NCBI GenBank assembly: GCA_029780695.1
Contig: JAKOYD010000013.1
Coordinates: 1-64,000 of the forward strand
Direction of reading: 5' to 3'
Length of the DNA stretch: 64,000 nt
From: Pseudomonadota bacterium
GTDB lineage: Bacteria > Pseudomonadota > Gammaproteobacteria > Burkholderiales > Burkholderiaceae_C
The notes under the pieces are model-generated. The model was not told the origin of the DNA and ran no database searches. It was given only the letters and a program-made list of their open reading frames with translations. A program made the translations under genes and the position numbers. Of this stretch, positions 4,410 through 46,855 are shown in pieces. The first letter of the stretch is position 1, and every line of letters begins with the position of its first letter.

Positions 4410-5786
4410 TCAGCGCACCAGCAGCGCGCCGGCGGTCCTGTGGCTGGCCGTGTCGACCAGGATCAGAGAGCCCAGCACGCGGCTGCGCTCGAAGGTCGCG
4501 GCGGGTATCGGCTCCTGCAGTACCAGGTCGACGTGGCCGATGGCGTTGGGTTCGAGCTGCGTGGCTTCTTCGCGCGCCAGGGTGTGGATGTTCAGCCGCT
4601 CCACGATGCGCGCCACCTTGGCCTTGACCCAGCGGTGCCCGTGCAGCGCCCAGTAGACGCGGCCAGCCACCAGCGGCTCGTCGTCCATCCAGGCCACGGT
4701 GGCGGGCAGTTCGCGCCGGCTGGGCCACGCGGGTTGCGGGGGCGGTTCGTCGAAGTCGTCGGCGGCCACCACGGCGGCCGGGGCGGGCGCGGCCACGATC
4801 CAGTCACCGCGCGAGACGTCCACTTCGCGGTCCAGCACGATGCCGGCGCTGTGCCCGGCGCCCACGGCGCGCGGCGTGCGCGCGTGGTCTAGCACCTGCG
4901 CCACCACGGCACCCTGGCCGCCCGGCAGCACCTGCACGCGCGTGCCCGGCGCCACGCTGCCGGTAGCCACGCGGCCCCAGAAGACGCGCCGGCCCTGATG
5001 TGTGTCGGAAGACGAAGAAAACTTCTCGACCCACTGCACCGGAAACGCCAGCGGCAGCGCCGTCTCGCGCGGCATCACGGGCAGGCGCTCCAGAATTTCG
5101 AGCAGCGTGGGCCCGGCGTAGCCGCACCAGCCCGGGTTTTCGTGACCGAAGTCGACCACGTTCCAGCCCTTCAGCGCCGACACCGGCACGATGGCGGCGG
5201 GGGTGATGCCGGCATCGCGCGCAAACGCCTGCAGCGCGTCGCGGATGTGGGCAAACGCCAGCGCCGGGTCGGCCACCGCGTCGAGCTTGTTGATGGCAAA
5301 CACCACCGACGGCACGCGCAACAGATTCAACAGCAGCGAATGGCGCCGGGTCTGGGGCAGCAGGGTGAGGGCGGGATCCTGCCAGTCGAGCTTGGTGGCA
5401 TCGACCAGCACCACCGCCGCATCGGCCTGCGACGCCGCGGTGACCATGTTGCGCGTGTACTGCTCGTGCCCCGGCGCGTCGCCGATGATGAACTTGCGCG
5501 CCTCGGTGTTGAAGTAGCGGTACGCGACGTCGATCGTGATGCCCTGCTCGCGCTCGGCCTGCAGCCCGTCCGTGAGCAGCGCCAGATCGGCCTCGCCGCC
5601 GCGCGTGACGCCCGCCAGGTGGTCCTGCAGCACGGCCTTGCTGTCCACTAGCAGGCGGCCGATGAGGGTGCTCTTGCCGTCATCCACGCTGCCGCAGGTG
5701 ATGAAGCGAAGGGCTGTTTGGGTGTCGTTTGCGGCTTCAGCGCTTGTGGTGCGGGCGCGGGCAGCTATGGATTCTGTAGTGGTCAT
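4410..5786 (-). CDS. cysN: Sulfate adenylyltransferase subunit 1 (GTPase subunit)
   Basis: 458 residues with EF-Tu-like GTPase motifs: GSVDDGKST (G1), DAPGHEQYTRNM (G3) and NKLD (G4), followed by two beta-barrel domains. With CysD it makes adenylylsulfate from ATP and sulfate, driven by GTP hydrolysis. There is no APS kinase domain at the C-terminus, which fits direct reduction of APS by the CysH encoded here. The N-terminal 20 or so residues (about 5-25) are encoded by a family B repeat, so this stretch is unlikely to be ancestral. It is the last gene of the cysI-DUF934-cysH-cysD-cysN series; a family A hairpin separates it from cysD. Confidence 0.95.
   Translation of the reverse strand: MTTTESIAARARTTSAEAANDTQTALRFITCGSVDDGKSTLIGRLLVDSKAVLQDHLAGVTRGGEADLALLTDGLQAEREQGITIDVAYRYFNTEARKFIIGDAPGHEQYTRNMVTAASQADAAVVLVDATKLDWQDPALTLLPQTRRHSLLLNLLRVPSVVFAINKLDAVADPALAFAHIRDALQAFARDAGITPAAIVPVSALKGWNVVDFGHENPGWCGYAGPTLLEILERLPVMPRETALPLAFPVQWVEKFSSSSDTHQGRRVFWGRVATGSVAPGTRVQVLPGGQGAVVAQVLDHARTPRAVGAGHSAGIVLDREVDVSRGDWIVAAPAPAAVVAADDFDEPPPQPAWPSRRELPATVAWMDDEPLVAGRVYWALHGHRWVKAKVARIVERLNIHTLAREEATQLEPNAIGHVDLVLQEPIPAATFERSRVLGSLILVDTASHRTAGALLVR
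5725..5780 (-). repeat. Family B repeat inside the 5' end of cysN
   Basis: On the minus strand the coding sequence contains ATAGCTGCCCGCGCC, then CAAGCGCTGAAGCC, matching the family B core seen between genes elsewhere (AGCTGCT-GCGC, then AAGCGCTGGAGCC). It reads through in frame. Confidence 0.7.
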
Positions 5787-5803
5787 GCGAGAATTTTCTA
5801 AAA

Positions 5804-5900
5804 CCGGACGCGAAGATCACGCGAAGGACGCAAAAAAGACAAATTCAAAAAGGTTTTTCTTTCGCGTTCTTCGCGGACCCTTTGCGTCCTTCGCGTCCGG
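5804..5900. repeat. Family A hairpin repeat, copy 1 (cysD/cysN gap)
   Basis: CCGGACGCGAAG at the left and its complement at the right end enclose GGACGC-type units and an A/T-rich centre. It occupies most of the 128-bp gap between cysD and cysN and could form a long transcript hairpin within the operon. Confidence 0.85.
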
Positions 5901-5914
5901 ATGTTGGGTCTTTC

Positions 5915-6862
5915 TTAGAAATAGCCGTCTTTCTTGCGCTTTTCCATCGACGCTTCGCTGGTCTTGTCGTCCATGCGCGTCGCCCCGCGCTCGCTCACGT
6001 CGGCGGCCAGGGTTTCGATGACGATCTGGCCCGGCGTGGCGGCGTCGCTCTCGACGGGGCAGGTGCAGGTGATGTCGCCCACGGTGCGAAAGCGCACGGT
6101 GCGGGTTTCGGTCGCTTCGCCATCCTTCGGCGGTGTCAGGGGCGTGACCGGCACCAGCAGGCCGCGACGCTCCACCACCTCACGTTTGTGGGCGTAGTAG
6201 ATGGAGGGCAGGGCGATGTTTTCGCGCTCGATGTACTGCCACACGTCCAGCTCGGTCCAGTTGCTGATGGGGAACACGCGGAAGTGCTCGCCGGGCGCCA
6301 GGCGCGTGTTGAACAGCGTCCACAACTCGGGCCGCTGCGCCTTGGGCTGCCATTGGCCGAAGCTGTCGCGGTGGCTGAAGATACGCTCCTTGGCGCGCGC
6401 CTTTTCCTCGTCGCGCCGCGCGCCGCCGATCAGGGCGTCGAAGCGGAACTCGTCGATGGCTTCCAGCAGCGTGACGGACTGGTGCACGTTGCGCGATTCG
6501 CCCGGGTGCGCCAGCCGCACCGTGCCGCGCGCCATGCTGTCTTCGACGCTGCGCACGATCAGCTCTGCTTTCAATTCCGCAGCACGCTGGTCGCGGAAAT
6601 CGGTCACTTCGGGGAAGTTGTGGCCGGTGTCGATCATCAGCAGCGGGTACGGAATGCGGCCGACGCCAAACGCTTTTTCCGCGCAGCGCAGCATCACCAG
6701 AGAATCCTTGCCGCCGGAGAACAGCAGGGCCGGGCGCTCGAAGGCGGCGGCGACTTCGCGCAGGATGAAGACGGTTTCTTCTTCCAGCGCGTCGAGGTGG
6801 GAATTGCTGAGCGAGTGGGCGCTGGCGGCTTGCAGCAGTTGGGGTTCGGTGCGGGCGTTCAT
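5915..6862 (-). CDS. cysD: Sulfate adenylyltransferase subunit 2
   Basis: 315 residues from the ATG at 6862. It is the ATP-pyrophosphatase half of ATP sulfurylase: SGGKDSLVML is the PP-loop, followed by DTGHNFPEV, GARRDEEKARAKER and PISNWTELDVWQYI, all standard for CysD, with the RKKDGYF C-terminus. The start overlaps the cysH stop as ATGA, so translation of the two is probably coupled. The frame stays open 99 codons upstream through cysH, but those codons are antisense-like and belong to cysH in another phase. Confidence 0.95.
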   Translation of the reverse strand: MNARTEPQLLQAASAHSLSNSHLDALEEETVFILREVAAAFERPALLFSGGKDSLVMLRCAEKAFGVGRIPYPLLMIDTGHNFPEVTDFRDQRAAELKAELIVRSVEDSMARGTVRLAHPGESRNVHQSVTLLEAIDEFRFDALIGGARRDEEKARAKERIFSHRDSFGQWQPKAQRPELWTLFNTRLAPGEHFRVFPISNWTELDVWQYIERENIALPSIYYAHKREVVERRGLLVPVTPLTPPKDGEATETRTVRFRTVGDITCTCPVESDAATPGQIVIETLAADVSERGATRMDDKTSEASMEKRKKDGYF

Positions 6863-7746
6863 GCGTGGGCTTTCTGAGGGGCCCCTTCCCCCGCTGGGGG
6901 AAGGCTGGGATGGGGGCTTGCCGGGTCGATGGTGGCGCGGTCGGCCCCCACCCCAGCCCTCCCCCAGAGGGGGAGGGTGTTGGTGTCCTTCACATGCAGG
7001 CCGCACTCTTTCGCCGCCTCGTCCTCCCACCACCAGCGCCCGGCGCGGAAGTCTTCGCCCAGCGTGATGGCGCGGGTGCAGGGCGCGCAGCCGATGCTGG
7101 GGTAGAACTGGTCGTGCAGCGGGTTGTACGGCACGTTGCGCGAGGCGATGTAGTGCCACACGTCGCCCCAGGTCCAGTCGGCCAGCGGGTTGTATTTGAG
7201 CAGCTGCTTGCTCTCTTCTTCGGAGCGGTCTACCAAGGGTACGTCGGCGCGCGCGCCCGATTGTTCGCGGCGCAGGCCGGTCACCCAGGCGCGCTTGCCT
7301 GCCAGCGCGCGGCCCAGCGGCGCCATCTTGCGGATGCCGCAGCAGGCCTTGCGCAAGTCGATGCTTTTGTACATGGCGCCGTCGCCTTCGCGCGCCACGA
7401 ACTGCACCACGGCTTCTGGCACGGGCCGGTAGACGGTGAGCGGCGCGTGCGGGTGCGCGGCCTGCTGCGTTTGCAATTGGCCCAGCAGGGCCAGCGTCTC
7501 GGCGTGCAGCGCGCCGGTGTCGAGCACGAAGACCTCGATCGGCAACTGGTGCGTATTGATCAGGTGCGTGATCACCATGTCCTCGGCGCCCAGGCTGTTG
7601 GCTTGCGTCACCGGGCTGGTGGCGGCGGCCTTGAGCAGGGTGACCACGGTTTCAAGCAGCTTGTCGTCGAAGCTGGCGCTGGGCTGGGCGTAGAGATCGA
7701 TGGCCGACGCCGTGGCCGCGCCGGGCAGGGCGGTGACGGCGCTCAT
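6859..7746 (-). CDS. cysH: Assimilatory APS/PAPS reductase with a repeat-encoded tail
   Basis: 295 residues. The PP-loop reductase fold is clear (VFVLDTGALHAET, WVTGLRREQS). Two cysteine pairs, KACCGIRK and CAPCTRAI, match the [4Fe-4S]-binding pattern of APS reductases rather than E. coli-type PAPS reductases, so the likely reaction is APS to sulfite. The family normally ends with ECGLH plus a few residues; here about 40 further residues (from TNTLPLWGRAGVG) are encoded by the G/C-rich family D repeat at 6883-6977. The stop overlaps the cysD start as ATGA and the start overlaps the DUF934 stop, indicating tight coupling. Confidence 0.93.
   Translation of the reverse strand: MSAVTALPGAATASAIDLYAQPSASFDDKLLETVVTLLKAAATSPVTQANSLGAEDMVITHLINTHQLPIEVFVLDTGALHAETLALLGQLQTQQAAHPHAPLTVYRPVPEAVVQFVAREGDGAMYKSIDLRKACCGIRKMAPLGRALAGKRAWVTGLRREQSGARADVPLVDRSEEESKQLLKYNPLADWTWGDVWHYIASRNVPYNPLHDQFYPSIGCAPCTRAITLGEDFRAGRWWWEDEAAKECGLHVKDTNTLPLWGRAGVGADRATIDPASPHPSLPPAGEGAPQKAHA
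6883..6977. repeat. Family D repeat forming the 3' end of cysH
   Basis: An inverted repeat of C/G runs: CCCTTCCCCC-GGGGGAAGG and GGCTGGGATGGGGG on the left, CCCCCACCCCAGCC and CTCCCCC-GGGGGAGGG on the right. This element type is otherwise an intergenic hairpin in related genomes (from general knowledge); here it is translated as the CysH tail. Confidence 0.75.
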
Positions 7747-8153
7747 GCGGCCTCCTGCGTGCTGTCGTTGCGTGCGAAGTGGGGGCGCGGCTGCAATGCA
7801 TCGCCCTGGTAGAAGGCGCTGTAGCGTGCGAACTGGCGCTCGGCCGCGGCGGCATCCACGCCTTCGGCCAGCACGGCGCTGGTGAAGCCGCTGCGCGCCA
7901 TCTGCACCAGCTGGTCGATCAGCACGTCGCCGGTGGCGCGGATGTCGCCGGCAAAGCCGAAGCGGCGGCGCAGCAGCACGGCCTGGCTGAAGGCGCGGCC
8001 GTCGGTGAATTTGGGGAAGTCGAGTTCGATGCGTTCGACACCACCGAAGGCGCCGCCTGTCGCCAGCGCCGCGAGCTCGGTGTCGTTCTCGATTTTCAAG
8101 ACTTTTGCGTCGCCAGCGCTTGCTGCATCAGCGCCATGAGCTATCAGTTTCAT
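7743..8153 (-). CDS. DUF934-family protein of the sulfite reductase operon
   Basis: 136 residues. The core GVERIELDFPKFTDGRAFS, LLRRRFGFAGDIRATGDVL and ARSGFTSAVL is the DUF934 signature; these proteins sit next to single-chain sulfite/nitrite reductases in proteobacteria and are thought to assist them, but no activity is established. The N-terminal 20 codons coincide with a family B repeat, so the original start may have been replaced. Its stop overlaps cysH by four bases (ATGA) and it follows cysI by 23 bp. Confidence 0.9.
   Translation of the reverse strand: MKLIAHGADAASAGDAKVLKIENDTELAALATGGAFGGVERIELDFPKFTDGRAFSQAVLLRRRFGFAGDIRATGDVLIDQLVQMARSGFTSAVLAEGVDAAAAERQFARYSAFYQGDALQPRPHFARNDSTQEAA
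8094..8153 (-). repeat. Family B repeat at the start of the DUF934 gene
   Basis: On the minus strand: AACTGATAGCTCATGGCGCT, then GCAAGCGCTGGCGACG and AAAAGTCTTGAAA. The order and spacing match intergenic family B copies. It supplies the start codon and first 20 codons of the gene. Confidence 0.7.
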
Positions 8154-8176
8154 AGTATTGGCCTTCGGTTGTCGGC

Positions 8177-10438: not shown

Positions 10439-10465
10439 AAGCCGACCCCAAGGTCGGCTTTTTTG
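10439..10465 (+). terminator. Dodecin gene terminator
   Basis: AGCCGACC, a short CCAA loop and GGTCGGCT are followed by TTTTTT, 25 bp after the dodecin stop codon. Confidence 0.9.
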
Positions 10466-10468
10466 ATG

Positions 10469-10520
10469 AAGAAAACCGGCTCCAGCGCAACCTGGTAAAG
10501 CGAAAGCAGCTATTTTTATT
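10469..10520. repeat. Family B repeat at the 3' end of the M20 gene
   Basis: GGCTCCAGCGC, then TAAAGCGAAAGCAGCTATT. Its right edge overlaps the TAA stop codon (10516-10518) of the minus-strand M20 hydrolase gene. Confidence 0.7.
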
Positions 10521-11760
10521 GCAGCAAATCGGCCAGCGTGCGCGCCACCACCTGGGTCGCGCGGCGCAGGTCCTGCAGGTCCAGCCGCTCGTCGGCGCGC
10601 TTGGCGTGGCTTTCCAGCACGGTGCGCGGGCCGGCGCCGTAGATCACGCCGGGAATGCCGCGCTCGACGTACAGGCGCACGTCGGTGTAGAGCGGCGTGC
10701 CCACGGCAGCGGGTTTTTCGCCGAACACCGCTTCGCCATGCTTCTGGATGGCGTCGACCAAGGGCGCGTTGCCGGGCAGCGGCGTCATGGCCCTGGCCAG
10801 CAGCAGGCGCTTGATGTCGACGCGGATGCCTTCATCCGGCCGCCCGGCATTGAAGCCATCCACCGCGTCGGCAATCACCTGGCGGATCAGCGCCTCGACG
10901 TCGGCCGGGTTTTCCTCGGGGATCATGCGGCGGTCCAGCTTGAACACCACCTTGCCCGGTATCACGTTGGTGTTGGTGCCGCCTTCGATGCGCCCGATGT
11001 TCAGGTAGGGGTGCTTGATGCCCGGCACGCGCGAGCTGATGCCCTGGTAGCGCCGGTTTTCGGCGTACAGCTGGTTCATGATGGCCACGGCGCCCTGCAG
11101 CGCGTCGATGCCGGTGTGCGGCACGGCGGCGTGCGCCATCTTGCCGTGCACCGTCACTTCCATCTGCAGGCAGCCGTTGTGCGCGGTCACCACTTCGTAA
11201 CTGAAGCCGGCGGCGATCATCAAATCGGGCTGGGTCAGGCCTTTTTGCAGCAGCCAGCCGGGGCCCAGTTCGCCGCCGAATTCCTCATCGTAGGTGAAGT
11301 GCAGTTCGACCGCGCCGTGCTTCGGCTTGGCGACGGCTTCGAGCGCGCGCAGCGCGAAGGTGAAGGTGCCGAAATCGCTCTTGCTGACGGCGGTGGCGCG
11401 GCCGTACATCTTGCCGTGGTCGATCATGGCACCGTAGGGGTCGTGCGACCAGCCTTCGCCCGGCGGCACCACATCGCCATGGGCGTTGAGCGCGATGGTC
11501 GGGCCGCCTTCGCCAAAGCGGCGGCGCACGATCAGGTTGGTGATGCTTTCCATGCCGTAGGCGCGCACGTCGGCGTCGGTCACCGGGTGCTTTTCGACCT
11601 CGTAGCCGATGCCTTGCAGCAATTCGGCTGCCTTGTCGGCGTGCGGCGCGTTGTGGCCCGGCGGCGTGTCTGTCGGCACGCGCACCAGTGCCTGCACAAA
11701 GGCGACTTCTTCGTCAAAGTGCTGGTCGATCCAGGCGTCGAGGGCAGAGTAGGTGGGCAT
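10516..11760 (-). CDS. M20-family metallohydrolase (ArgE/DapE-like)
   Basis: 414 residues. Zinc ligands and catalytic residues are visible: LNAHGDVVPPGEGW (His-x-Asp), YDEEFGGELGPG (Glu-Glu), the dimerisation part KMAHAAVPHTGIDAL, and a C-terminal ESHAKRADERL. It hydrolyses an amide bond of an acylated amino acid, small peptide or ureido compound. It follows the OHCU/allantoate fusion gene on the same strand, separated by a family A hairpin, so a role in ureide or amide nitrogen use is a reasonable guess; the substrate is not identifiable here. Start at 11760 chosen because the upstream extension runs through repeat DNA. Confidence 0.88.
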   Translation of the reverse strand: MPTYSALDAWIDQHFDEEVAFVQALVRVPTDTPPGHNAPHADKAAELLQGIGYEVEKHPVTDADVRAYGMESITNLIVRRRFGEGGPTIALNAHGDVVPPGEGWSHDPYGAMIDHGKMYGRATAVSKSDFGTFTFALRALEAVAKPKHGAVELHFTYDEEFGGELGPGWLLQKGLTQPDLMIAAGFSYEVVTAHNGCLQMEVTVHGKMAHAAVPHTGIDALQGAVAIMNQLYAENRRYQGISSRVPGIKHPYLNIGRIEGGTNTNVIPGKVVFKLDRRMIPEENPADVEALIRQVIADAVDGFNAGRPDEGIRVDIKRLLLARAMTPLPGNAPLVDAIQKHGEAVFGEKPAAVGTPLYTDVRLYVERGIPGVIYGAGPRTVLESHAKRADERLDLQDLRRATQVVARTLADLLQ

Positions 11761-11787
11761 GGTGTGTGGAGGAGGGTTTGCAAAAAA

Positions 11788-11893
11788 CCGGACGCGAAGA
11801 ACGCAAAGGGTTCGCGAAGGACGCGAAAGAAGACCAAAAAATTCTTGAATTCTTTCGCGTCCTTCGCGCAGCTTTCGCGTCCTTCGCGTCCGG
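11788..11893. repeat. Family A hairpin repeat, copy 2
   Basis: CCGGACGCGAAG and its complement frame GAAGGACGC-type units around a centre with GAATTC. It fills the gap between the M20 gene and the OHCU/allantoate fusion gene. Confidence 0.85.
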
Positions 11894-11903
11894 CTGTTGG
11901 GGT

Positions 11904-13697
11904 TTATTCGGCCGCCAGGTCTTCCAGCAGCCGCTGCATGGCGCGCACTGCGAGGTTCATGTCTTCGGCGTTGGTCGATTCGAGCGGGTTGTGGCTGATG
12001 CCGGCGTTTTCGCCGCGCACGAACAGCATGGCTTGCGGCATCACTTCGTGCAGTTTCATGGCGTCGTGCCCGGCGCCGCTGGGCATGCGGAAGATGGGCA
12101 GGCCGAGCGATTCGACGGCGCGCTCCCAGCGCTGCTGCCATGCGGGGTCGCTGGGCGCGGCGCTGGCGCGCAGGGTCTCTTCCAGCGTATAGGTCACGCC
12201 GCGGCGCAGGCTGATCTGCTGCAGTTTTTCGAGCACGTCGGCGGCCAGGGCGTCGCGCTGCGCGTCGTGGGGGGCGCGCAGGTCCAGGCTGAAGGCGCAG
12301 CGGCCGGGCACGACGTTGATGGAGCCGTTGGGCACGTTGAGCAGACCCATGGTGGCGACCGAATCGCCATCCTGGGCGGCACGCGCCTCCAGATAAAGCG
12401 CCAGCTCGGCCGCCGCGCAGGCCGCGTCGCGCCGCCGGTCCATGGGCGTGGTGCCGGCGTGGCTGGCCTGGCCGATGAATTCACCCACAAAGCGGATGCT
12501 GCCGTTGATGGAGGTGACGATGCCCAGCGGCAGGTTCAGCTCGTTCAGCACCGGCCCCTGCTCGATGTGGACTTCGATGAAGCCGAGGTAGTCCTTGGGG
12601 TTGCGCTGGAGCTTGGGGATGTCGTCGATGGCGAGGCCCGCGTGTTGCATCGCGTCGCGCATGGTCACGCCGTCGGCATCCTGCTGGTCCAGCCAGTCGG
12701 GGTTGAACTGGCCGATGAGCGCGCCCGAGCCGAGGAAGGTAGCCTTGTAGCGCTGGCCTTCTTCTTCGGCAAAGCCGATCACCTCGACGTCGAACGGCAG
12801 GCGCCGGCCGGCGCGGTGCAGTTCGCGCACGCAGGCGATGGGCACGAGGATGCCCAGCCGTCCGTCGTACTTGCCGCCGTTGCGCACGGTGTCGTAGTGG
12901 CTGCCGGTCATGAGCGTTTTGGCGCTCCTGCGCTCGCCGGTACTGCGCGAGTAGCTATCTGAATAATAGCGGCCCACCACGTTGCCGACGGCGTCGAGGC
13001 CGACTTGATCGAAGCCCGCCTCGCGCATGGTCTGGGCGATGAAGGCGGCGGCGGCGCGGTGCGCGTCGGTCAGGTAAGTCACCGTCAGCTGGCCCGCCTC
13101 GGCAAAGCCGGGGTCGCTGTGCAGCGCCAGTTTTTCGTGCCAGTCCCACACGTCGTTGCCCAGTGTCGGCTCCACGCCAAACTTGTCGGCCAGGCGAATC
13201 TCGACGATGCGGTGGATGTTGCGCAGCGCCTCGGCCAGCTCGAAGTCGGGGTGGTTGGCCAGCCGGCGCGCAAAGGTGTCGATGATCTGCTGCTTGTTCA
13301 GCCCCGCCCCGCGCGGCCCGCGCACGGCCAGGATGAAGGGAAAGCCGAACCTGGCGTTGTAGTCGGCATTGAGCTTCTGGATGCGCGCGAATTCGTCGGG
13401 CGTGCACTCAGTGAGGCCGGCCTTGCCTTGCTCGTGGGTGGATTCGGCGGTGAGCGTCTTGGCGACCATCGCCTTGCCAGCCAGCTCGGGGTGGGCGCGG
13501 ATGAGCGCCAGTTGCGCGTTCTGGTCGGCGCGCGCCAGCACCTGTGTCATCACGTGCTTGAGATGCGCCAGCGACCGGAAGGGGCGTTGCTTCAGCGCTT
13601 CGGCGGCGATCCAGGGCGTGTGCTCGTACAGGCCGTCGAGCATGCGCTGCGCCTCGTCGGGCGAGGCGGTGTTGAGTTGATCCAGTGTGTAGGCCAT
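11904..13697 (-). CDS. OHCU decarboxylase - allantoate amidohydrolase fusion
   Basis: 597 residues in two parts. Residues 1-170 are 2-oxo-4-hydroxy-4-carboxy-5-ureidoimidazoline decarboxylase (FRSLAHLKHVM, AHPELAGKA, FGFPFILAVRG), which gives S-allantoin. Residues 185-597 are an M20-type allantoate/carbamoyl-amino-acid amidohydrolase (TGSHYDTVRNGGKYDG, FAEEEGQRY, FIEVHIEQGPVL, SHAGTTPMDRR, PSGAGHDAM). PuuE just upstream supplies the missing middle step, allantoin to allantoate. About 15 residues before the first zinc motif (SDSYSRSTGERRSAK) coincide with a family B repeat and look like an in-frame insertion. The start at 13697 gives the usual MAYTLDQLN beginning; it lies 5 bp from the puuE stop. 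Confidence 0.93.
   Translation of the reverse strand: MAYTLDQLNTASPDEAQRMLDGLYEHTPWIAAEALKQRPFRSLAHLKHVMTQVLARADQNAQLALIRAHPELAGKAMVAKTLTAESTHEQGKAGLTECTPDEFARIQKLNADYNARFGFPFILAVRGPRGAGLNKQQIIDTFARRLANHPDFELAEALRNIHRIVEIRLADKFGVEPTLGNDVWDWHEKLALHSDPGFAEAGQLTVTYLTDAHRAAAAFIAQTMREAGFDQVGLDAVGNVVGRYYSDSYSRSTGERRSAKTLMTGSHYDTVRNGGKYDGRLGILVPIACVRELHRAGRRLPFDVEVIGFAEEEGQRYKATFLGSGALIGQFNPDWLDQQDADGVTMRDAMQHAGLAIDDIPKLQRNPKDYLGFIEVHIEQGPVLNELNLPLGIVTSINGSIRFVGEFIGQASHAGTTPMDRRRDAACAAAELALYLEARAAQDGDSVATMGLLNVPNGSINVVPGRCAFSLDLRAPHDAQRDALAADVLEKLQQISLRRGVTYTLEETLRASAAPSDPAWQQRWERAVESLGLPIFRMPSGAGHDAMKLHEVMPQAMLFVRGENAGISHNPLESTNAEDMNLAVRAMQRLLEDLAAE
12915..12970 (-). repeat. Family B repeat inside the OHCU/allantoate gene
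   Basis: On the minus strand: GATAGCTACTCGCGCAG, then GAGCGCAGGAGCGCC, in the order and spacing of family B. It is in frame and adds about 15 residues to a surface stretch just before the GSHYDT zinc motif. Confidence 0.65.
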
Positions 13698-13701
13698 GCG
13701 T

Positions 13702-14658
13702 TCAATCCTGAAAGGGGTGCTGCGCGATCCAGTGTTGTGCAATGTCGATGCGGCGGCAGACCCACACATCCGGGTGCGCGGCGACGTGCGCCATGAAGCG
13801 CTGCAGCGCCGTGATGCGCCCGGGCTTGCCGAGCAGGCGGCAGTGCATGCCGATGCTCATCATCTTGGGGCGGTCCAGGCCGCGCGGGTCGCCTTCGGCA
13901 TACAGCGCGTCGAAGCTGTCCTTCATGTACTGGAAGAACGGGTCGGCATGGCTGTAGCCCTGCGGCAGGGAGAAGCGCATGTCGTTGCAGTCGAGCGTGT
14001 AGGGCACGACCAGGTGCGGCACCACCTGGCCGTCGGTGCGCTGCACCTTCATCCAGAAGGGCAGGTCGTCGCCGTAGTAGTCGCTGTCGTACAGCAGCCG
14101 GCCGTCGTCCACCACCAGGCGGCGCGTGCGCGGGCTGTCGCGGCCGGTGTACCAGCCCAGCGGGCGCTCGCCAGTCTGGCGCTCGATGATGTCGAGCGCC
14201 TCGGCCATGTGGGCGCGCTCGGTGGCTTCGTCGATGGACTGGTAGTGGATCCACTTCAGGCCGTGGCAGGCGATTTCGTCGCCGCGCGCCTGGAAGGCCT
14301 TCACCACGTCCGGGTGTCGCGCCATGGCGGTGGCCACGCCAAAGACGGTGAGCGGCCAGCCGCGCGCATCGAATTCGCGCAGGATGCGCCACACGCCAGC
14401 GCGCGAGCCGTATTCGTAGATGCCCTCCATGCTCATGTGGCGTTCGGGGTAGGCGGCCGGGTTGAACATTTCGGACAGGAACTGCTCGCTGGCCGCGTCG
14501 TCATGCAGCACGCAGTTTTCGCCGCCTTCCTCGTAGTTCAGGACAAACTGCACCGCAATGCGCGCGCCATTCGGCCAGCGGGCATGCGGCACGTCGGCGC
14601 CGTAGCCCACCAGGTCGCGCGGGTAGGGCGCGGTGCTGTCGTAGGAAAGATGCTTCAT
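13702..14658 (-). CDS. puuE: Allantoinase PuuE (polysaccharide-deacetylase fold)
   Basis: 318 residues. The sequence YPRDLVGYGADVPHARWPNGARIAVQFVLNYEEG is the standard PuuE opening, followed by GVWRILREFDARGWPLTVFGV, DEIACHGLKWIHYQ and YTLDCNDMRFS. PuuE opens the allantoin ring to give allantoate without the urea-type amidohydrolase fold. Its start overlaps the GntR stop as ATGA and its end nearly abuts the fusion gene, so GntR-puuE-OHCU/allantoate form one operon. Confidence 0.93.
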   Translation of the reverse strand: MKHLSYDSTAPYPRDLVGYGADVPHARWPNGARIAVQFVLNYEEGGENCVLHDDAASEQFLSEMFNPAAYPERHMSMEGIYEYGSRAGVWRILREFDARGWPLTVFGVATAMARHPDVVKAFQARGDEIACHGLKWIHYQSIDEATERAHMAEALDIIERQTGERPLGWYTGRDSPRTRRLVVDDGRLLYDSDYYGDDLPFWMKVQRTDGQVVPHLVVPYTLDCNDMRFSLPQGYSHADPFFQYMKDSFDALYAEGDPRGLDRPKMMSIGMHCRLLGKPGRITALQRFMAHVAAHPDVWVCRRIDIAQHWIAQHPFQD

Positions 14659-15365
14659 GCTATTGAATTGGTAGCTGCGACCACCCTTGCATGGCGCGCT
14701 GGGCGGGTTTTTTGTTGGGGTGCGGCAGCGGGACGGTCCAGGTTCAGCCCCGCTTCCACGTGGTCGAGGTGCTCACGCATCAGCTTGACCGCCTGCGTCA
14801 CGTTGCCGCTGGCAAAGCAGGCCACCAGTTCGGCGTGCTCGGCGGCGGAGTCGTGGGCGGCGCTGCGGCTCTGGTACATCAGCGTGGCCACGGCGCAGCG
14901 GGCCAGCAGGTCGCGCAGCACCTGGGCCAGCACGTGGTTGCCGATCAATTCGGCCATGCGCACATGAAAGTCGCCCAGCAGTTCGGTGCGGTCGGCCACG
15001 TCGTCGCGTGCGACGGCGGCCTGTTCCTGCGCCACGTGGGCGCGCAAGGCATCCACCTGGGCCGGGCCCGCCGCGCGCACAAAGGCGCGCGTGAGTTCGA
15101 CTTCGAGCATCCGGCGCACGGCGAACACCTGGCGCGCCTCGTCGGCCGACGGGCAGGCGACAAAGGCGCCGCGCGCCGGCGCCAGCGTGACCAGGCGCTT
15201 TTGCGACAGCTGAAACAGTGCCTGCCGCACCAGCGTGCGCGACACGCCGAACTGGTCGGCCAGCCGCTGCTCGGCCAGCTTGCCGCCCGGCTGCAGGCGA
15301 TGATCGACGATGGCCCGGGTCAGGGTGGCGACGATCTGGTCGGTGCTGGAAGAAGACGCAGCCAT
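14655..15365 (-). CDS. GntR-family (FCD) transcriptional regulator of ureide genes
   Basis: 236 residues from the ATG at 15365. The N-terminal winged helix (residues 8-70: ATLTRAIVDHRLQPGGKLAE, FGVSRTLVRQALFQL) and an FCD effector domain (ADEARQVFAVRRMLE, DFHVRMAELIGN, EHAELVACFA) are clear. First gene of an operon with puuE and the OHCU/allantoate fusion, and divergent to hiuH; it probably controls both through the TGTATACA site between them. Effector is unknown, perhaps allantoin or a precursor. The last residues are encoded by a degenerate family B element. Confidence 0.9.
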   Translation of the reverse strand: MAASSSSTDQIVATLTRAIVDHRLQPGGKLAEQRLADQFGVSRTLVRQALFQLSQKRLVTLAPARGAFVACPSADEARQVFAVRRMLEVELTRAFVRAAGPAQVDALRAHVAQEQAAVARDDVADRTELLGDFHVRMAELIGNHVLAQVLRDLLARCAVATLMYQSRSAAHDSAAEHAELVACFASGNVTQAVKLMREHLDHVEAGLNLDRPAAAPQQKTRPARHARVVAATNSIA

Positions 15366-29838: not shown

Positions 29839-29845
29839 AGGCGCG

Positions 29846-31095: not shown

Positions 31096-31142
31096 CGGGC
31101 GATTATTGATGCGTTTTTAGGGTGGCAGCGCTGAAGGAACAG

Positions 31143-31337
31143 CCGGACGCGAAGGGCGCGAAGGGTGCGCGAAGGGCGCGAAAGGAAAACCAAACTTGCT
31201 TTTTAAGGCAGCTTGCGTAAGCTCCGCAAGGGATGCAAGCCGTATCGTCTTGAAGCCGTTGTCTGGCGAGCGCCAGCAGCTATAAAAAGGGTAGTTTTTC
31301 GCGGCCTTCGCGCACCCTTCGTGCCCTTCGCGTCCGG
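31143..31337. repeat. Family A hairpin repeat, copy 3, with a nested family B-like element
   Basis: GCCGGACGCGAAGGGCGCG at the left and the complement at the right enclose a longer centre than in other copies. The centre contains AGCTTGCGTAAGC and GCGAGCGCCAGCAGCTAT, fragments of family B, so a B element seems to have landed in an A element. It fills most of the gap between the chromate and arsC genes. Confidence 0.75.
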
Positions 31338-31770: not shown

Positions 31771-31833
31771 CTGTTTTCTATGAAAACGATAGCTGCTCGC
31801 GCTTGTCAGTAAAGCGCTGACGGCCGATCACAT
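31771..31833. repeat. Family B repeat between arsC and the DUF1343 gene
   Basis: ATAGCTGCTCGCGCTTGTCA, GTAAAGCGCTGACGGCC. A clear copy in a 73-bp gap. Confidence 0.8.
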
Positions 31834-31834
31834 A

Positions 31835-33037
31835 TCAATACAGCAGATGCGGCGCGCGCGCTTGCAGCCACGCGGCTTCATCTGCGCGCGCCAGCGCATC
31901 CAGCGCGGCGGGCGGCGCGTTCACGTCGTCCACCCATTCGCGCAGCAGCGGGCTGCCGTTGATGACGTCGATGGCCAGTTTGCCCAGTTCGTATTCGTAC
32001 GGAAAGTCGCGCCACAGCGGGTAGCCCGGCTGCTGCAGGCGCAGCGCGCGGAATGCCAGCGCCTGCAGCCGCCACGGCTGGAAGGCGGAGTGGTCGTAAT
32101 GCGTGGGGTCTTCGACGTGGATCTGCACGCCAGCGCACAGCTGGCCCACGTGCTTGTGAAAGGTCGGCTCGAACCAGCATTCGCGCAGCACGCAGCCGCG
32201 CAGCCAATCGGGCGCCAACGCGCGCATGTCGGCCAGCAGTCGGCGGGTGTCCACGTCGGGCGCGCCGAACAGCTCCAGCGGGCGCGTGGTGCCGCGGCCT
32301 TCGCTCAGCGTGGTGCCCTCCAGCATCACGGTGCCGGCGTAGGCGCGCGCCATCGACAGGTTGGCGGCGTTAGGGCTGGGGTTGACCCACGTCCGATCCG
32401 TGGGCCAGCCGAAACCGGGCGCGGCGTCGGGCTGCCAGCCGTCCATGGTGATGACGCGGTATTCGACGTCCAGCTTCAGCAGGTCGATGAACCAGTGCCC
32501 CAACTCGCCCATCGTCAGGCCATGGCGCATCGGCATCGGGCCGGCGCCGACGAAGCTTTCCCAGCCGTCACGCAGCGTCAATCCCTCGACCGGGCGGCCG
32601 GCGGGATTCGGACGGTCCAGCACCCACACCGCCTTGCCATGCGCCGCCGCGGCTTCCAGCACGTAGCGCAGCGTGGTGATGAAGGTGTAGATGCGGCAGC
32701 CCAGGTCTTGCAGATCGACCAGCAGCACGTCGAAGCTGCCCATCATGGCGTCGGTCGGCCGGCGCACCTCGCCGTACAGGCTGAACACGGGTATGCCCAG
32801 ACGCGGGTCGGTGAAGTCGGGCGACTCGACCATGTTGTCCTGCTTGTCGCCGCGCAGGCCGTGCTGGGGGCCGAAGGCGGCGGTGAGCTGCACGTCGGGC
32901 AAGGCGGCAAGGGCGTCGAGCGAATGCGTCAGGTCGCGCGTGACGGAGGCCGGGTGTGCGAGCAGGGCGACGCGTCGACCTTTCAAGGGGGCGCGCAACG
33001 TGGGGTCTTCTAGAAAACGTTCAAGGCCGAATTGCAT
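31835..33037 (-). CDS. NamZ-like exo-beta-N-acetylmuramidase family protein (DUF1343)
   Basis: 400 residues, full DUF1343 length. The motifs LLAHPASVTRDL, FGPQHGLRGDKQDNMVES, VLLVDLQDLGCRIYTFITT, DRPNPAGRPVEG, GLTMGELGHW and SEGRGTTRPLELFGAP are characteristic. Bacillus NamZ of this family releases MurNAc from muropeptides, so a role in cell-wall recycling is likely. No export signal is visible, so it would act in the cytosol or the signal is absent. Single gene between two family B elements. Confidence 0.9.
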   Translation of the reverse strand: MQFGLERFLEDPTLRAPLKGRRVALLAHPASVTRDLTHSLDALAALPDVQLTAAFGPQHGLRGDKQDNMVESPDFTDPRLGIPVFSLYGEVRRPTDAMMGSFDVLLVDLQDLGCRIYTFITTLRYVLEAAAAHGKAVWVLDRPNPAGRPVEGLTLRDGWESFVGAGPMPMRHGLTMGELGHWFIDLLKLDVEYRVITMDGWQPDAAPGFGWPTDRTWVNPSPNAANLSMARAYAGTVMLEGTTLSEGRGTTRPLELFGAPDVDTRRLLADMRALAPDWLRGCVLRECWFEPTFHKHVGQLCAGVQIHVEDPTHYDHSAFQPWRLQALAFRALRLQQPGYPLWRDFPYEYELGKLAIDVINGSPLLREWVDDVNAPPAALDALARADEAAWLQARAPHLLY

Positions 33038-33039: not shown

Positions 33040-33108
33040 GAAATACTCTTGTTTTTGTAGCTGCTCGCGCTTGTCAGACAAGCGCTGAAGGCTGTTTTCG
33101 CTTCAAGT
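33040..33108. repeat. Family B repeat between DUF1343 and DOMON-like genes
   Basis: GTAGCTGCTCGCGCTTGTCA, ACAAGCGCTGAAGGC and CTTCAAGTCAA, fully matching the family. Its right edge runs up to the stop codon of the DOMON-like gene. Confidence 0.8.
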
Positions 33109-33683
33109 CAAAGGTGAGCCGTCCAGCCCGCGCGGTGGTGAAAGTCGGGGCGCGGCGCGGGGTGGTGCAGCGCCCAGTAGGCCAGTCGGCCGTCGCTGGA
33201 TTCGATGACGGCGGTCAAGCCCAGTTGCCAAGGCCTGTCCGCCGCGTCTGGCAGCCCTTCAGCCGGTAGCTCCGCGCCCAGCGTGAACACGTCCGCAGGG
33301 CGCGAGCGGCTGGTGACGATGCGGGGCGGCGTCAACACATCGATCGTCTCCGCTGCCGCATCCCGCACCCGCTCGGCGCTGAAGCGATAGGCCGCCCAGT
33401 CGCCCGAGGGGGCAAAGTTGAATTCGCGGTAGGCCGCAGCGCCTTCTGTCCCCACGAAGACTTCGAAACAGGTGTGCTGCCACAGGCCATCGGTGCGGGC
33501 CGGAACCGAGGTCGGGGCGGGTATCCGCAGTCCGCCCAGGTCACCCCGCACCGTGTAAACCAGCAGCAGCATCGGCTGTGGCGCGGCTTGCCAGTGCAGC
33601 TCGACCTCGATCCCACGCACCGCCGCGCACGGCGTGGCCGGGTGGCAGGTCAAAGGGTGGGTGGACAGCAGGCGCGCGGTCAT
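33108..33683 (-). CDS. DOMON-like domain protein
   Basis: 191 residues from the ATG at 33683. Mostly beta: VELHWQAAPQPMLLLVYTV, GLWQHTCFEVFVGTEG, YREFNFAPSGDWAAYRF, LGLTAVIESSDGRLAYWALHHP. This matches the DOMON/CBM9-like beta-sandwich found in a small group of proteobacterial proteins of unknown function. There is no signal peptide. It lies 14 bp downstream of a LysR gene on the same strand. The function is not assigned. Confidence 0.7.
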   Translation of the reverse strand: MTARLLSTHPLTCHPATPCAAVRGIEVELHWQAAPQPMLLLVYTVRGDLGGLRIPAPTSVPARTDGLWQHTCFEVFVGTEGAAAYREFNFAPSGDWAAYRFSAERVRDAAAETIDVLTPPRIVTSRSRPADVFTLGAELPAEGLPDAADRPWQLGLTAVIESSDGRLAYWALHHPAPRPDFHHRAGWTAHL

Positions 33684-37996: not shown

Positions 37997-37997
37997 A

Positions 37998-38217: not shown

Positions 38218-39006
38218 ATGGCGCAGGACCGGCCCCGGTTCCGCGCCATTTTCATATCCGACCTGCACCTGGGCACGCCCGGCTGCCAGGCGGGTCCACT
38301 ACTGGACTTTTTGAAGCACCACGACAGCGAATCGCTGTACCTGATCGGCGACATCATCGACGGCTGGCAACTGCGCCGGCGCTGGTTTTGGCCGCAGTCG
38401 CACAACGACGTGGTGCAGAAGATGCTGCGCCGCGCGCGCAAGGGTTGCCACGTGGTCTTTGTGCCAGGCAACCACGATGAATTCGCGCGCCAGTTTCTGA
38501 ACCACAACTTTGGCGGCATCGACGTGGTGGAAGACACCGTACACGTCACCGCCTGCGGCCGGCGCCTGTGGATCACGCACGGCGACCACTTCGACGGCGT
38601 GATCCAGCATGCCAAGTGGCTGGCCTATGTGGGCGACCACGCCTACGAGACGGTGCTGAAACTGAACCGCCACTTCAACAGCCTGCGCGCGCGCCTGGGG
38701 CTGCCGTACTGGTCGCTGTCGGCCTACCTGAAGCACAAGGTGAAGAAGGCGGTGAACTACGTCAGCGACTTCGAAGGCGCCGTGGCCGCCGAGGCGCGCC
38801 GGCGCGGCTACGACGGCGTGGTGTGCGGGCACATCCACCACGCCGAAATCCGCGAAGTGGGCGGCACGCTGTACTGCAACGACGGCGACTGGGTGGAAAG
38901 CCGCAGCGCGCTGGTCGAGCACCACGATGGGCGGCTGGAGCTGGTGTTCTGGCAGGCTGGCCACGGCATCGAAGCGCGGCCGCAGCGGGTGGCCGAGACC
39001 GTGTGA
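38218..39006 (+). CDS. PlcP/LpxH-like calcineurin-fold metallophosphoesterase
   Basis: 262 residues from the ATG at 38218, where the conserved part starts (MAQDRPRFRAIFISDLHLG). Metal ligands appear in order: SDLHLG, GDIIDG, PGNHDE, THGDHFDG and VCGHIHHAEI. The family is often labelled UDP-2,3-diacylglucosamine diphosphatase, but this long form next to a glycosyltransferase matches PlcP, the phosphate-starvation phospholipase C that frees diacylglycerol. The frame can be extended to an ATG at 37993 overlapping the olsB stop, but that adds 75 residues encoded by family C repeat DNA. Confidence 0.85.
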   Translation: MAQDRPRFRAIFISDLHLGTPGCQAGPLLDFLKHHDSESLYLIGDIIDGWQLRRRWFWPQSHNDVVQKMLRRARKGCHVVFVPGNHDEFARQFLNHNFGGIDVVEDTVHVTACGRRLWITHGDHFDGVIQHAKWLAYVGDHAYETVLKLNRHFNSLRARLGLPYWSLSAYLKHKVKKAVNYVSDFEGAVAAEARRRGYDGVVCGHIHHAEIREVGGTLYCNDGDWVESRSALVEHHDGRLELVFWQAGHGIEARPQRVAETV

Positions 39007-39011
39007 AACAT

Positions 39012-39115
39012 CCGGACGCGAAGGACGCGAAGGTTTCTCGAAGGACGCAAAAGAATTCAACAACCGAGGGTCTTTTTCGCGTTCTTCGCGTAGCTTTTGC
39101 GTCCTTCGCGTCCGG
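39012..39115. repeat. Family A hairpin repeat, copy 4
   Basis: CATCCGGACGCGAAGGACG at the left is exactly matched by its complement at the right. The centre holds GAATTCAACAACCGAGGG. Lies between the phosphoesterase and glycosyltransferase genes. Confidence 0.88.
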
Positions 39116-39125
39116 ATGTTGGTAT

Positions 39126-39185
39126 TCAAATCAAATCACCCCCCAGCGCGTGCCCATCCAGCGCAAGCAGCTCCTATTTTTGAAG
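39126..39185. repeat. Family B repeat next to family A copy 4
   Basis: ATCAAATCAC, CCAGCGCGTGCCCATCC, AGCGCAAGCAGCTCC and TTTTTGAAG: the family B order in reverse orientation. It directly follows the family A hairpin and supplies the leader of the glycosyltransferase gene. Confidence 0.7.
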
Positions 39186-39192
39186 TAACACC

Positions 39193-44203: not shown

Positions 44204-44440
44204 CTGCGCCGTGGGCGCGCCAAGCCTTTCGCGCGTGCCGGCATGGGGGCCAGGGCGATGGGCTGCGCAACGCCTGCCCGCGGGGCCAACACCTGTGCCA
44301 GCGCGCGAAAGCCGCGTGCCGGCGCGGGCACCCGTGCCGCCGCCATGCGGCGCTTCATCGGCGCAAAGTCAGGGCATTTCGCCAGGGCGGCGGCGCCGCT
44401 TCAAGTGCTGGGCGAAAATCGCGCTTTCCAACGCGCCCGC

Positions 44441-46855
44441 ATGAACGCTCCGCTCGACGTCTCCTTCTTCCCGCGCGCTGCCAAGCCGCTCGCCAGCTAC
44501 AAGCCGTACTGGGCCAAGCGCTTCGGCACCGCGCCTTATCTGCCCATGAGCCGGGCCGAGATGGACGCGCTCGGCTGGGATTCGTGCGACGTGATTTTGG
44601 TCACGGGCGATGCCTACGTCGACCATCCCAGCTTCGGCATGGCCGTAATCGGCCGCGTGCTGGAAGCACAGGGCTTTCGCGTCGGCATCATCGCCCAGCC
44701 CGACTGGCACAGCGCCGACGCCTTCAAGGCGCTGGGCAAGCCCAACCTGTTCTGGGGCGTGACGGCGGGCAACATGGATTCGATGATCAACCGCTATACG
44801 GCTGATCGCAAGATTCGCAGCGACGACGCCTACACGCCCGGCGACGTCGGCGGCAAGCGACCCGACCGTGCCGCGATCGTTTACAGCCAGCGCTGCCGCG
44901 AGGCGTTCAAGGATGTACCCATCGTGCTGGGCGGCATCGAAGGCAGCCTGCGCCGCATCGGCCACTACGATTACTGGAGCGACAAGGTGCGCCGCTCCAT
45001 CGTGGTGGACAGCAAGTGCGATTTGCTGCTGTACGGCAACGCCGAACGCGCGCTGGTGGAAGTGGCGCACCGGCTGGCGCGGCACGAACCCGTTGAGCAG
45101 ATCACCGACGTGCGCGGCACCGCGTTCGTGATGCGAGCGTCGCCCGACGGCTGGTTCGAGATCGACTCGACCGAGGTCGATCAGCCCGGGCGCATCGAGG
45201 CGCACATCAATCCCTACCAGACGACCAGCGAGCAGGCGGCGGGGCAGGGCGCATCGTGTGATGCGGCAGATGCTTCTAATTTGATAGCTTCTGGCGCTCA
45301 CCCAGAAAGCGCTGGAGGCCAATTTGGCTTGAAGCCCGGCGAGCAGGCGCTGCACTTCGTGCCCAACCCCGCGCTGCGCGGCAAGGCGCCGCCGCGCGAC
45401 AAGACGGTGATCCGCCTGCCGAGCTACGAGCAGGTCAAGCGCGATGCCGTCCTTTACGCCCACGCCAACCGCGTGCTGCACCTGGAGACCAACCCCGGCA
45501 ACGCCCGCGCGCTGGTGCAGGCGCATGGCGAAGGCACTACGGCCAGAGACGTGTGGCTCAACCCGCCGCCGATTCCGCTGACCACGGCCGAGATGGACCA
45601 CATCTTCGACCTGCCCTACGCCCGCAGCCCGCACCCACGCTACGCCGACGCGCGCGGCCGCCACGACGGCGAAACCAAGATCCCCGCGTGGGAGATGATC
45701 CGTTTCAGCGTGAACATCATGCGTGGCTGCTTCGGCGGCTGCACCTTTTGCAGCATCACCGAGCACGAAGGCCGCATCATCCAGAGCCGCAGCGAGAAAT
45801 CCATCCTGCGCGAGGTGGAAGAGATGCGCGACAAGGTGCAGGGCTTCACCGGCGTCGTCAGCGACTTAGGCGGCCCCACCGCCAACATGTACCGCCTGGG
45901 CTGCAAGACGCCCGAGATTGAGGCCGCCTGTCGCAAGCCCAGCTGCGTCTATCCGGGCATCTGCCAGAACCTCACCACCGACCACGCGCCGCTCACGCGC
46001 ATCTACCAAAGGGCGCGCGCGCTGCCGGGTGTGAAGAAAGTGCTGATCGGCTCCGGCCTGCGCTACGACCTGGCCGTCAAATCGCCCAGCTACGTGAAAG
46101 AACTGGTTCAGCACCACGTCGGCGGCTACCTGAAGATCGCGCCCGAGCACACCGAGGAAGGGCCGCTGTCGAAAATGATGAAGCCCGGCATCGGCAGCTA
46201 CGACACCTTCAAGCAGCTGTTCGAGAAATTCAGCGCCGAAGCCGGCAAGCAGCAATTCCTGATCCCGTACTTCATCGCCGCGCACCCCGGCACGACGGAT
46301 GAAGACATGCTGAACCTGGCGTTGTGGCTGAAGAAAAACGGCTTCCGCGCCGACCAGGTGCAGGCCTTCTATCCGTCGCCCATGGCCACGGCCACCACGA
46401 TGTACCACACCGGCCTGAACCCGCTGGCCGGCATTCACCGTGACGAGCGCGGCGAGCAGGTCGACACCGTGAAAGGGGAGCGTCGCCGCCGCCTGCACAA
46501 AGCCTTCCTGCGCTACCACGACCCCAACAACTGGCCGCTGCTGCGCGAGGCGCTGAAAAAAATGGGCCGGGGCGAGCTGATCGGCAACGGCAAGCAGCAC
46601 CTTATTCCGACCTGGCAGCCGGTGACGGACGGCACGTATCAAAGTGCGCGGCGCAAGAATTCGACCGGTGCGGTCAGCGCGCCAGCCGCGACGCCGTCAC
46701 TACAAAAAAAGAAGCGACCTGCGCAATTCCAGCCAGCGCGCGGGGCGATTTTGACCCAGCACACCGGTTTGCCGCCGCGCGCCGCAGCCGCGCGTTCGCC
46801 GTCGCCCAGGCAGTCGGCCAAACCCGGCAGCCCGGTCGGCCGCGGCAAGCGCTGA
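44441..46855 (+). CDS. YgiQ-family radical SAM protein with an in-frame repeat insert
   Basis: 804 residues from the ATG at 44441. N-terminal YgiQ domain ([60 protein letters not shown]) and radical SAM core with [16 protein letters not shown] (C-x3-C-x2-C cluster ligands), then [19 protein letters not shown] and a lysine/arginine-rich tail. The reaction is unknown. Residues about 275-300 ([17 protein letters not shown]), just before KPGEQALHF, coincide with a family B repeat and lengthen a linker that is shorter in relatives as I remember them. Confidence 0.9.
45275..45333 (+). repeat. Family B repeat inside the ygiQ gene
   Basis: TTTGATAGCTTCTGGCGCT, CAGAAAGCGCTGGAGGCC, AATTTGGCTTGAAG: one of the best copies in the window. 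It keeps the reading frame open and lies between the N-terminal domain and the KPGEQALHF segment. Confidence 0.85.

Follow-up and report, generated by a model that had tools for sequence, protein, structure and literature searches.

A dispersed palindromic repeat of the Comamonadaceae lies between and within conserved genes, and its copies may be homogenised by overwriting

How does a palindromic DNA repeat come to lie, in frame, within conserved bacterial genes? The usual view is that translated palindromes are single insertion events which the host proteins tolerate, and the adequacy of this account is put in question by a stretch of 64,000 nucleotides (assembly GCA_029780695.1, contig JAKOYD010000013.1, positions 1 to 64,000; hereafter the window), in which a palindromic element of about 65 bp is found both between genes and inside genes, among them those for a CysN-like GTPase and for YgiQ. 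The window belongs to a 3.9-Mb metagenome-assembled genome (MAG) of 180 contigs, 83.8% complete and with 6.5% contamination, so that a few of the contigs sampled may be of foreign origin; the closest named YgiQ record, among the matches kept, is that of an Ottowia MAG (92%). The answer that we favour, and to which we give an even chance, is that the element is a family-restricted dispersed repeat, resembling the repetitive extragenic palindromic (REP) sequences, whose copies, genic and intergenic, overwrite one another and so stay alike.

A repeat finder aligned nine places of the window as one family. Scanning with a consensus yielded 21 rows, and in 16 of these the two arms are separated by exactly 7 nt, in agreement with the sixteen clear copies counted in the preliminary description of this DNA; a weight matrix built from 84 copies outside genes gave 22 copies at a score of at least 10. 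The column information climbs near column 4 and stops near column 68, and the element is formed by an AT-rich palindrome, GCTATTAAATTAATAGC, followed by a GC-rich hairpin; in the consensus, ATAGC (GTAGC in some copies) stands 5 nt ahead of the hairpin stem and faces an upstream GCTAT. The similarity among the window copies is about 69%; some 50 bits are distributed across the whole element, and more than 1.9 bits are reached in two columns only. The consensus ends show no terminal inverted repeat, and the mean GC content of the copies is 44-54% per genome.

Four copies had been placed inside genes, and all four were recovered, with E values of 3e-16 to 1e-7, by a covariance model built only from 11 intergenic window copies, the in-gene copies being held out. 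Their frames are open and the names given earlier to their hosts hold: the CysN-like GTPase, a DUF934 protein, a fusion of OHCU decarboxylase and M20 peptidase (the allantoate enzyme) and YgiQ with its Radical_SAM_N domain. The YgiQ copy lies in a linker near residue 345 of protein P0003 (45267-45340, plus strand, in gene 44243-46855, plus) and scores 55.3 bits with the covariance model and 71.7 with the weight matrix. In the gene for the OHCU decarboxylase/allantoate amidohydrolase fusion (11904-13769, minus) the copy spans 12902-12975 on the minus strand (30.1 bits at 12903-12975; weight matrix 40.1). The other two, for which the location had to be corrected, form the N-terminus of the protein at its start codon: 5712-5785 (minus; 31.9 bits, weight matrix 46.7) in the CysN gene at 4410-5786 (minus), and 8088-8161 (minus; 33.2 bits, weight matrix 56.8) in the DUF934 gene at 7743-8153 (minus). 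The solved CysN homologue aligns from residue 21 on, so that the element lies within an extension ahead of the conserved domain. A second and weaker YgiQ copy, near the C-terminus (46694-46767, plus; weight matrix 38.6), was absent from the first listing.

Beyond the window, we scanned a genome sample of 864 kb, composed of the first 40 kb of 20 contigs and the window, on which all statements of copy density rest; the 20 contigs were already known to hold a match, which represents a mild selection. At a weight matrix score of at least 15 there are 235 places, against none in the reversed sequence (a looser scan on part of the columns gave 2 reversed-control matches in this genome), and by extrapolation the whole genome holds roughly a thousand copies. 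The sequence GCTT N7 AAGCG is present in 42 of the 235. A codon-based gene caller predicted 791 genes in the sample (87% coding), by which 130 places are outside genes, 31 over a gene end and 74 with their core inside a called gene (64 of them internal); the CysN and DUF934 copies are counted as outside because the caller chose an internal start. In the 737 genes of at least 300 nt there are 71 peaks at a score of at least 16, compared with a mean of 0.0 over 10 codon shuffles, so that coding copies are not at the chance level. A copy is carried by 66 of the 737 genes, including those for PutA (two copies), PurL (three), LeuRS, LpxB (two), an AIRS-domain protein (two), Tex, a biotin-carboxylase/carboxyltransferase protein and a transglycosylase/transpeptidase protein. 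There are two tex genes in the MAG (L036:208-2589, minus, and L067:9296-11752, plus), both with the element at the same place of the YqgF domain, and one of them may be contamination.

The in-gene copies use mainly a few reading frames. Over phases 0/1/2 the 74 copies are distributed 24/2/15 on the same strand as the gene and 3/6/24 on the opposite strand, whereas the open fractions of these frames in the 84 outside copies are 0.64/0.54/0.05 and 0.65/0.25/0.75. Two frames are thus favoured beyond their openness, two open frames are hardly used, and the TAG-bearing frame is taken by 15 copies, in which the TAG codon is altered; leaving the TAG frame aside, frame use still deviates from the open-frame expectation (p 8e-6). 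The favoured same-strand frame reads approximately Ile-Ala-x-x-Ala-x-x-x-Ser-Ala-Gly-Gly, and, to judge from the open frames, the in-gene copies may be expressed as part of their proteins. For 13 copies in ten proteins, the position was compared with the listed best Pfam stretches: 8 lie beyond them, 1 is at an edge and 4 are within them (in PurL at the site denoted PurL-116, an MFS protein, a FemAB-like protein and a carboxyltransferase).

The element is restricted to one bacterial family. A second model, applied to 100 relatives, matched 44 of 60 genomes of the same family (this genome included) and none of 40 from other families; 33 of the carriers have at least 21 copies and 11 have 1-4, no more than 49 matches being counted for any genome. 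With one mismatch allowed, the core pattern is found at up to 620 places (G010), compared with 74 for the reversed pattern, and the two strands are nearly balanced; this pattern is an unclean counter in some genomes that are rich by the model (84 against 74 for the control in G001, 83 against 89 in G008, 19 against 102 in G028). Among the 78 readable named YgiQ loci (the best 80 of 596), the element is carried by seven, all betaproteobacterial records, and by none from Pseudomonas or Acinetobacter, so that at YgiQ the same residues are not found in distant families. Six of seven Polaromonas YgiQ loci hold copies, with a hairpin version of their own.

Presence and absence among orthologues, together with in-frame location in conserved genes, is what is also described for the Rickettsia palindromic elements (RPEs). 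In YgiQ the element (score above 15) occurs in 15 of 28 readable relatives (30 fetched), belonging to five genera. In the allantoate enzyme it occurs in 5 of 30 orthologues, the other 25 being empty, and the DUF934 protein has it in 6 of 9 readable orthologues, the anchor having failed to read 21 of 30. Of 28 readable CysN orthologues 16 score above 15, 15 of these in the same register relative to the anchor and 12 with an ATG at the same codon. At the site PurL-284, 24 of 30 orthologues were read and all 17 with a 34-residue loop carry the element, three other genera among them, while three more rows, one of which holds the element, had the anchor at another place. The YgiQ linkers of other lineages (L158, L160, L174, L199) hold other repeat-like peptides (QWIAGQARND, PLPLAGEGRGEG, VRPEPVEG and PHPNPLPQAGEGARAG), and the linker looks as if it were a general landing spot. 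A single-sequence structure prediction of the allantoate enzyme had a mean predicted local distance difference test score of 40 and was discarded.

The element encodes 16 or more residues, yet it does not lengthen its host by that amount: the net change is 0-8 residues at the allantoate enzyme, PurL-116 and the LeuRS site denoted LeuRS-720. At LeuRS-720 and PurL-116 the loop is equally long with and without the element, which is carried by 13 of 15 and 11 of 15 same-length orthologues, respectively. The allantoate loop has a net gain of 6 residues relative to the nearest empty relative, G013, and solved homologues have shorter loops, by 6-7 residues at LeuRS-720, PurL-116 and PurL-284 and by 8 in the allantoate enzyme. 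Since all these gains are below the encoded length, a protein with the element is not simply longer by what the element encodes. The view that the in-gene copies are insertions thus stands in part, as they are far above chance and absent from YgiQ of distant families, but they are not clean insertions.

In addition, the copies are retained at the level of DNA. The information content of in-gene copies (47 bits) is close to that of outside copies (53 bits), and their column profiles correlate at 0.93. ATA represents 1.4% of the Ile codons, yet it is found in 10 of 15 YgiQ inserts. We counted rare codons (a share of at most 5%) kept at identical residues, using the same pairs for site and control and keeping same-length orthologues at any score: 14 for LeuRS-720, 14 for PurL-116 and 17 for PurL-284, where one of 15 was left out at each of the first two because its reading frame was not recovered. 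For PurL the control omits the columns of the tested site only, and the other PurL copies remain in it. Rare codons are kept in 344/679 cases at LeuRS-720 (110/2793 in the rest of the gene), in 206/401 at PurL-116 (278/3162) and in 182/536 at PurL-284 (342/3585), that is, in 34-51% of cases at the three sites versus 4-10% elsewhere in the same genes. The values are similar when pairs more than 88% identical are removed (302/617, 160/345 and 166/499 versus 50/2550, 214/2862 and 278/3321, respectively). Between genera, 346/480 are kept in the YgiQ insert versus 80/1421 in the rest, for 13 orthologues that were chosen by score.

The dispersed copies also have lineage versions, clearest in G019 (21 copies), where the hairpin is not kept, G010 (30), G014 (11) and G007 (6). 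To compare in-gene copies with these versions, columns 24-54 were scored under each genome's matrix of its other copies and double-centred, at YgiQ-290 (11 genomes), LeuRS-720 (8), PurL-116 (8) and PurL-284 (9). The copies exceed expectation under the matrix of their own genome by 5.4 bits (permutation p 5e-5, the smallest possible with 20,000 permutations). The excess is 2.7 bits when G007 is omitted (p 0.00025, the smallest of 4,000) and 2.2 bits without G007 and G019 (p 0.0005); at an equal depth of 9 copies per genome, again omitting G007, p ranges from 0.0002 to 0.0015 over ten draws, and none of 300 column-scrambled controls, which keep composition only, is as high. By site, the signal is strong in YgiQ and PurL-284 (p 0.0002 each) and moderate in LeuRS (p 0.013). 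A copy thus leans to the version of its own genome, unlike an insert inherited since before the genomes split, which indicates that something couples the copies.

It is from these three observations (little length change, DNA-level retention and a dialect shared with the own genome) that we infer overwriting. Copies would overwrite one another in a manner similar to gene conversion, anchored on short homology, and this homogenisation would take the place of ordinary insertion followed by drift, with the usable frames probably filtered by what the host protein tolerates. Such a process is expected to leave the length of the host loop little or not changed, to keep rare codons in genes over genus-level distances, and to make in-gene copies lean to the repeat version of their own genome. 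If it operates, some loops of core enzymes would evolve in concert with intergenic repeats, outside ordinary codon models. Whether the copies are coupled by overwriting or by a protein that reads them, the maintenance of REP-like repeats becomes a testable question in culturable carriers.

Several points weigh against this interpretation. We saw no conversion event whose donor could be identified, and window copies about 69% alike over about 65 bp are rather short and dissimilar for homologous recombination as it is known. An old insertion that was later trimmed could likewise give equal loop length, and loop length at PurL-284 is itself variable: the element-free loops have 30, 30, 39 and 40 residues against 34, so that the element-bearing loop is 4 residues longer than two of them, 5-6 shorter than the two others and 7 longer than that of the solved PurL. 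All-codon identity in the YgiQ insert (308/437) is not above that of the rest of the gene (20844/28862), and only the rare-codon test, which was devised after this comparison, separates the two; we attribute the lack of excess to common codons agreeing through shared bias. The own-genome excess falls to 1.3 bits (p 0.011) without G007, G019 and G014, the G007 version rests on 6 copies, and PurL-116 alone gives no significant signal (p 0.16). Finally, in the sample of this genome (40 stretches of 20 kb) only 7 neighbouring copies are less than 600 nt apart, compared with 21.1 (standard deviation 4.2) in simulations, an avoidance that conversion alone does not predict.

The main rival, which explains the same facts as overwriting and which we regard as unlikely all the same, is that the element is a DNA signal read by a protein in uptake, recombination or nucleoid organisation. 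The specificity of the reader would shift by lineage, and selection or biased uptake would pull all copies to the local dialect, as in the DNA uptake sequences (DUS). The avoidance of close neighbours, the nearly balanced strand counts, the frame preference, the copies in housekeeping genes and the dialects common to in-gene and dispersed copies of one genome are consistent with such a signal. For DUS, dialects, intragenic copies and inverted pairs at terminators have been described (PMC3630211), and the present element is similar in its many dispersed and intragenic copies, its lineage dialects and its inverted pairs at gene ends. Verminephrobacter eiseniae, of the Comamonadaceae, is naturally transformable, and DNA sequence specificity is suggested in that report as a possible limit to exchange (PMC4212676). 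However, a DUS has 9-11 bp and the receptor ComP (PMC4212676), whereas the element has about 65 bp and no known receptor; it is over-represented in many genomes of the family, but its information is spread over about 65 columns, without a short invariant core, and no reader protein has been identified, none having been searched for. In its most far-reaching form, which we likewise regard as unlikely, the element would be a dialect-forming Comamonadaceae signal, read by a putative protein and driven back into shape even in essential genes. If this were true, part of the proteome (the Ile-Ala-x-x-Ala-x-x-x-Ser-Ala-Gly-Gly loops) would owe its sequence to a process acting on DNA rather than to protein function, and a bacterial family would have a dispersed DNA signal that went unnoticed.

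The explanation of the preliminary description, a translated mobile palindrome of the RPE or miniature inverted-repeat transposable element (MITE) kind that inserted in frame, was tolerated in loops or linkers and was then inherited, seems to us equally improbable. It accounts for the presence/absence pattern (allantoate enzyme and YgiQ, in relatives as in named loci), and it agrees with the 8 of 13 copies beyond the listed best Pfam stretches and with the LeuRS-720, PurL-116 and PurL-284 loops being longer than in solved homologues. It does not account for net gains of 6, 6-8 or 0 residues from an element encoding at least 16, and simple inheritance neither keeps rare codons nor gives a leaning to the own genome. 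Moreover, the consensus ends lack the terminal inverted repeat, and no transposase of the tested kind tracks the element. Exact junctions and target duplications were sought by comparing the window with G023, G013 and G003, where most copies are shared or have diverged beyond reading and no recent filled/empty pair with exact junctions was found.

The candidate mobiliser tried was the REP-associated tyrosine transposase, RAYT (Y1_Tnp, PF01797). It was rejected: 19 of the 24 element-rich genomes of the family have it, and so do 9 of the 12 element-poor ones (Fisher p 1.0), and no Y1_Tnp was found in the element-rich G005, G016 and G021 (99% complete). Among 21 Y1_Tnp loci, 6 have a copy just 3' and 12 have none in a stretch of 3.2-3.4 kb. 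In six of the 21 loci (L001, L233, L235, L242, L245 and L248) the element lies 315-365 nt beyond the domain, on the opposite strand.

The genomic placement of the element would suit an RNA hairpin acting at transcript 3' ends as stabiliser or terminator, with genic copies as by-products. About a third of the detected copies are inside genes; the others are mostly at gene ends, above all 3' ends, and those outside genes or over gene ends adjoin stop codons, with a median gap of 0.5-3 nt for co-oriented upstream genes. Among those with a neighbour on both sides (160 copies), 48 are in convergent and 10 in divergent gaps, whereas of 480 intergenic gaps 75 are convergent and 99 divergent (Fisher p 1e-4 and 9e-6), so that convergent gaps are enriched and divergent ones depleted. 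Nevertheless, no covariation beyond shuffles is detected in 148 rows, folding z-scores of 7 window copies range from -1.73 to 0.39, the window has no Rfam match at gathering scores, and the hairpin is not kept in the G019 version. As this function would also give no reason for retention in genes, we consider it very improbable. Recurrent independent insertion at the same hot spots in each genus, for which the permissive YgiQ linker with its other repeat-like stretches in L158, L160, L174 and L199 could be invoked, is the least credible explanation, since independent insertions should scatter and 15 of 16 CysN copies share a register, as 17 PurL-284 copies share a loop length.

The element had been taken as undescribed in Comamonadaceae, which holds only partially. 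A listing of motif pairs from 2017 (PMC5217627) includes GCTTAT(N)5AAGCG in Acidovorax ebreus TPSY (114 copies, 5 in genes) and ATAGCT(N)22CAAAAG in Polaromonas naphthalenivorans CJ2 (125 copies, 18 in genes), which, as here, are from the same family, mostly intergenic near gene ends and in some cases in genes. The A. ebreus pair is the hairpin of this element with its 7-nt loop. The Polaromonas pair, which is likely also this element, shares the ATAGCT word, with a spacing of 22 nt against mostly 30-31 nt here; the exact pair is absent from the seven Polaromonas YgiQ loci. What that listing gives is motif pairs, with no element, translation or orthologue comparison, and in the open-access papers searched we found none that joins these copies into one translated family-wide element. 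The BRE repeat, also dispersed in Comamonadaceae with some copies in coding sequences, is described as having about 90 bp and 69% GC on average, in tandem at some loci (PMC3110155), and its length and GC content set it apart from the present element.

Translated palindromes are indeed established in Rickettsia, in the form of RPEs (PMC2229807), and are also known outside that genus, since intragenic GTAG/CGTC REPs have been reported, some in frame in conserved open reading frames of several species (PMC3733652). With the motif parts and translated REPs already known, the element is a variant within that kind. RPEs, described with 105-146 bp and terminal inverted repeats (PMC2229807), have in common with it a palindromic repeat in frame at permissive sites of conserved genes, but the element is shorter, changes the net length little and is retained at the DNA level from genus to genus. 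The GTAG/CGTC REPs (PMC3733652) are likewise short palindromes; they lie at 3' ends, where the adjacent genes are convergent or co-oriented, and the element shows the same rarity between divergent genes (10 of 160 copies, against 99 of 480 gaps). In contrast, it is longer, lacks the GTAG/CGTC tag at the hairpin base, is present in 66 of 737 sampled genes and, where REPs form pairs or clusters of close units, avoids close neighbours (7 versus 21.1 simulated); and, unlike REPs with RAYT, it does not follow the presence of Y1_Tnp.

The remaining window copies are as follows. Those found by both the covariance model and the weight matrix (scores of the latter in brackets) include intergenic copies at 31772-31845 (plus, between two minus-strand genes; 65.6), 33040-33113 (plus; 75.4), 39118-39191 (minus; 71.8), 48637-48710 (minus; 55.9), 51979-52052 (minus; 83.1, the top score of the window), 55699-55772 (plus; 51.6) and 63422-63495 (minus; 49.9), and degenerate intergenic ones at 3845-3918 (plus; 29.2) and 31227-31300 (minus; 36.1). 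At gene ends, also by both methods, a copy lies over the 3' end of gene 10516-11760 (minus) at 10457-10530 (minus; 59.5), another over the 3' end of gene 54788-55696 (minus) at 54732-54805 (minus; 60.8), and a third overlaps a gene end at 49148-49221 (minus; 70.1). The copy at 29771-29844 (plus; 68.3) begins on the stop codon of gene 29009-29773 (plus), with a convergent gene next, and that at 58056-58129 (plus; 59.4) lies across the stop of gene 57297-58067 (plus). By the weight matrix there are, in addition, degenerate intergenic copies at 20333-20406 (plus; 33.6) and 24021-24094 (plus; 39.2), and a weak copy over the 3' end of gene 14655-15365 (minus) at 14654-14727 (plus; 23.2).

Other repeats are also present. 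Besides its copies of the element, PurL of this genome (L056:12098-16417) contains a different translated repeat in two stretches (PLTPTLSPEGRG ... PLPLAGEGRGEG); the PAPS reductase of the window (6859-7746, minus) ends in a similar SPHPSLPPAGEG tail. A second dispersed repeat, which occurs as inverted pairs (CCGGACGCGAAGGACGCGAAGG ... TTCGCGTCCTTCGCGTCCGG) at 5806-5900, 11781-11898, 31136-31337, 39005-39120, 55837-55955 and 58125-58249 of the window, appears unrelated to the 65-bp element. Finally, the window gene at 20609-22300 (plus) contains internal repeats of 180 nt.

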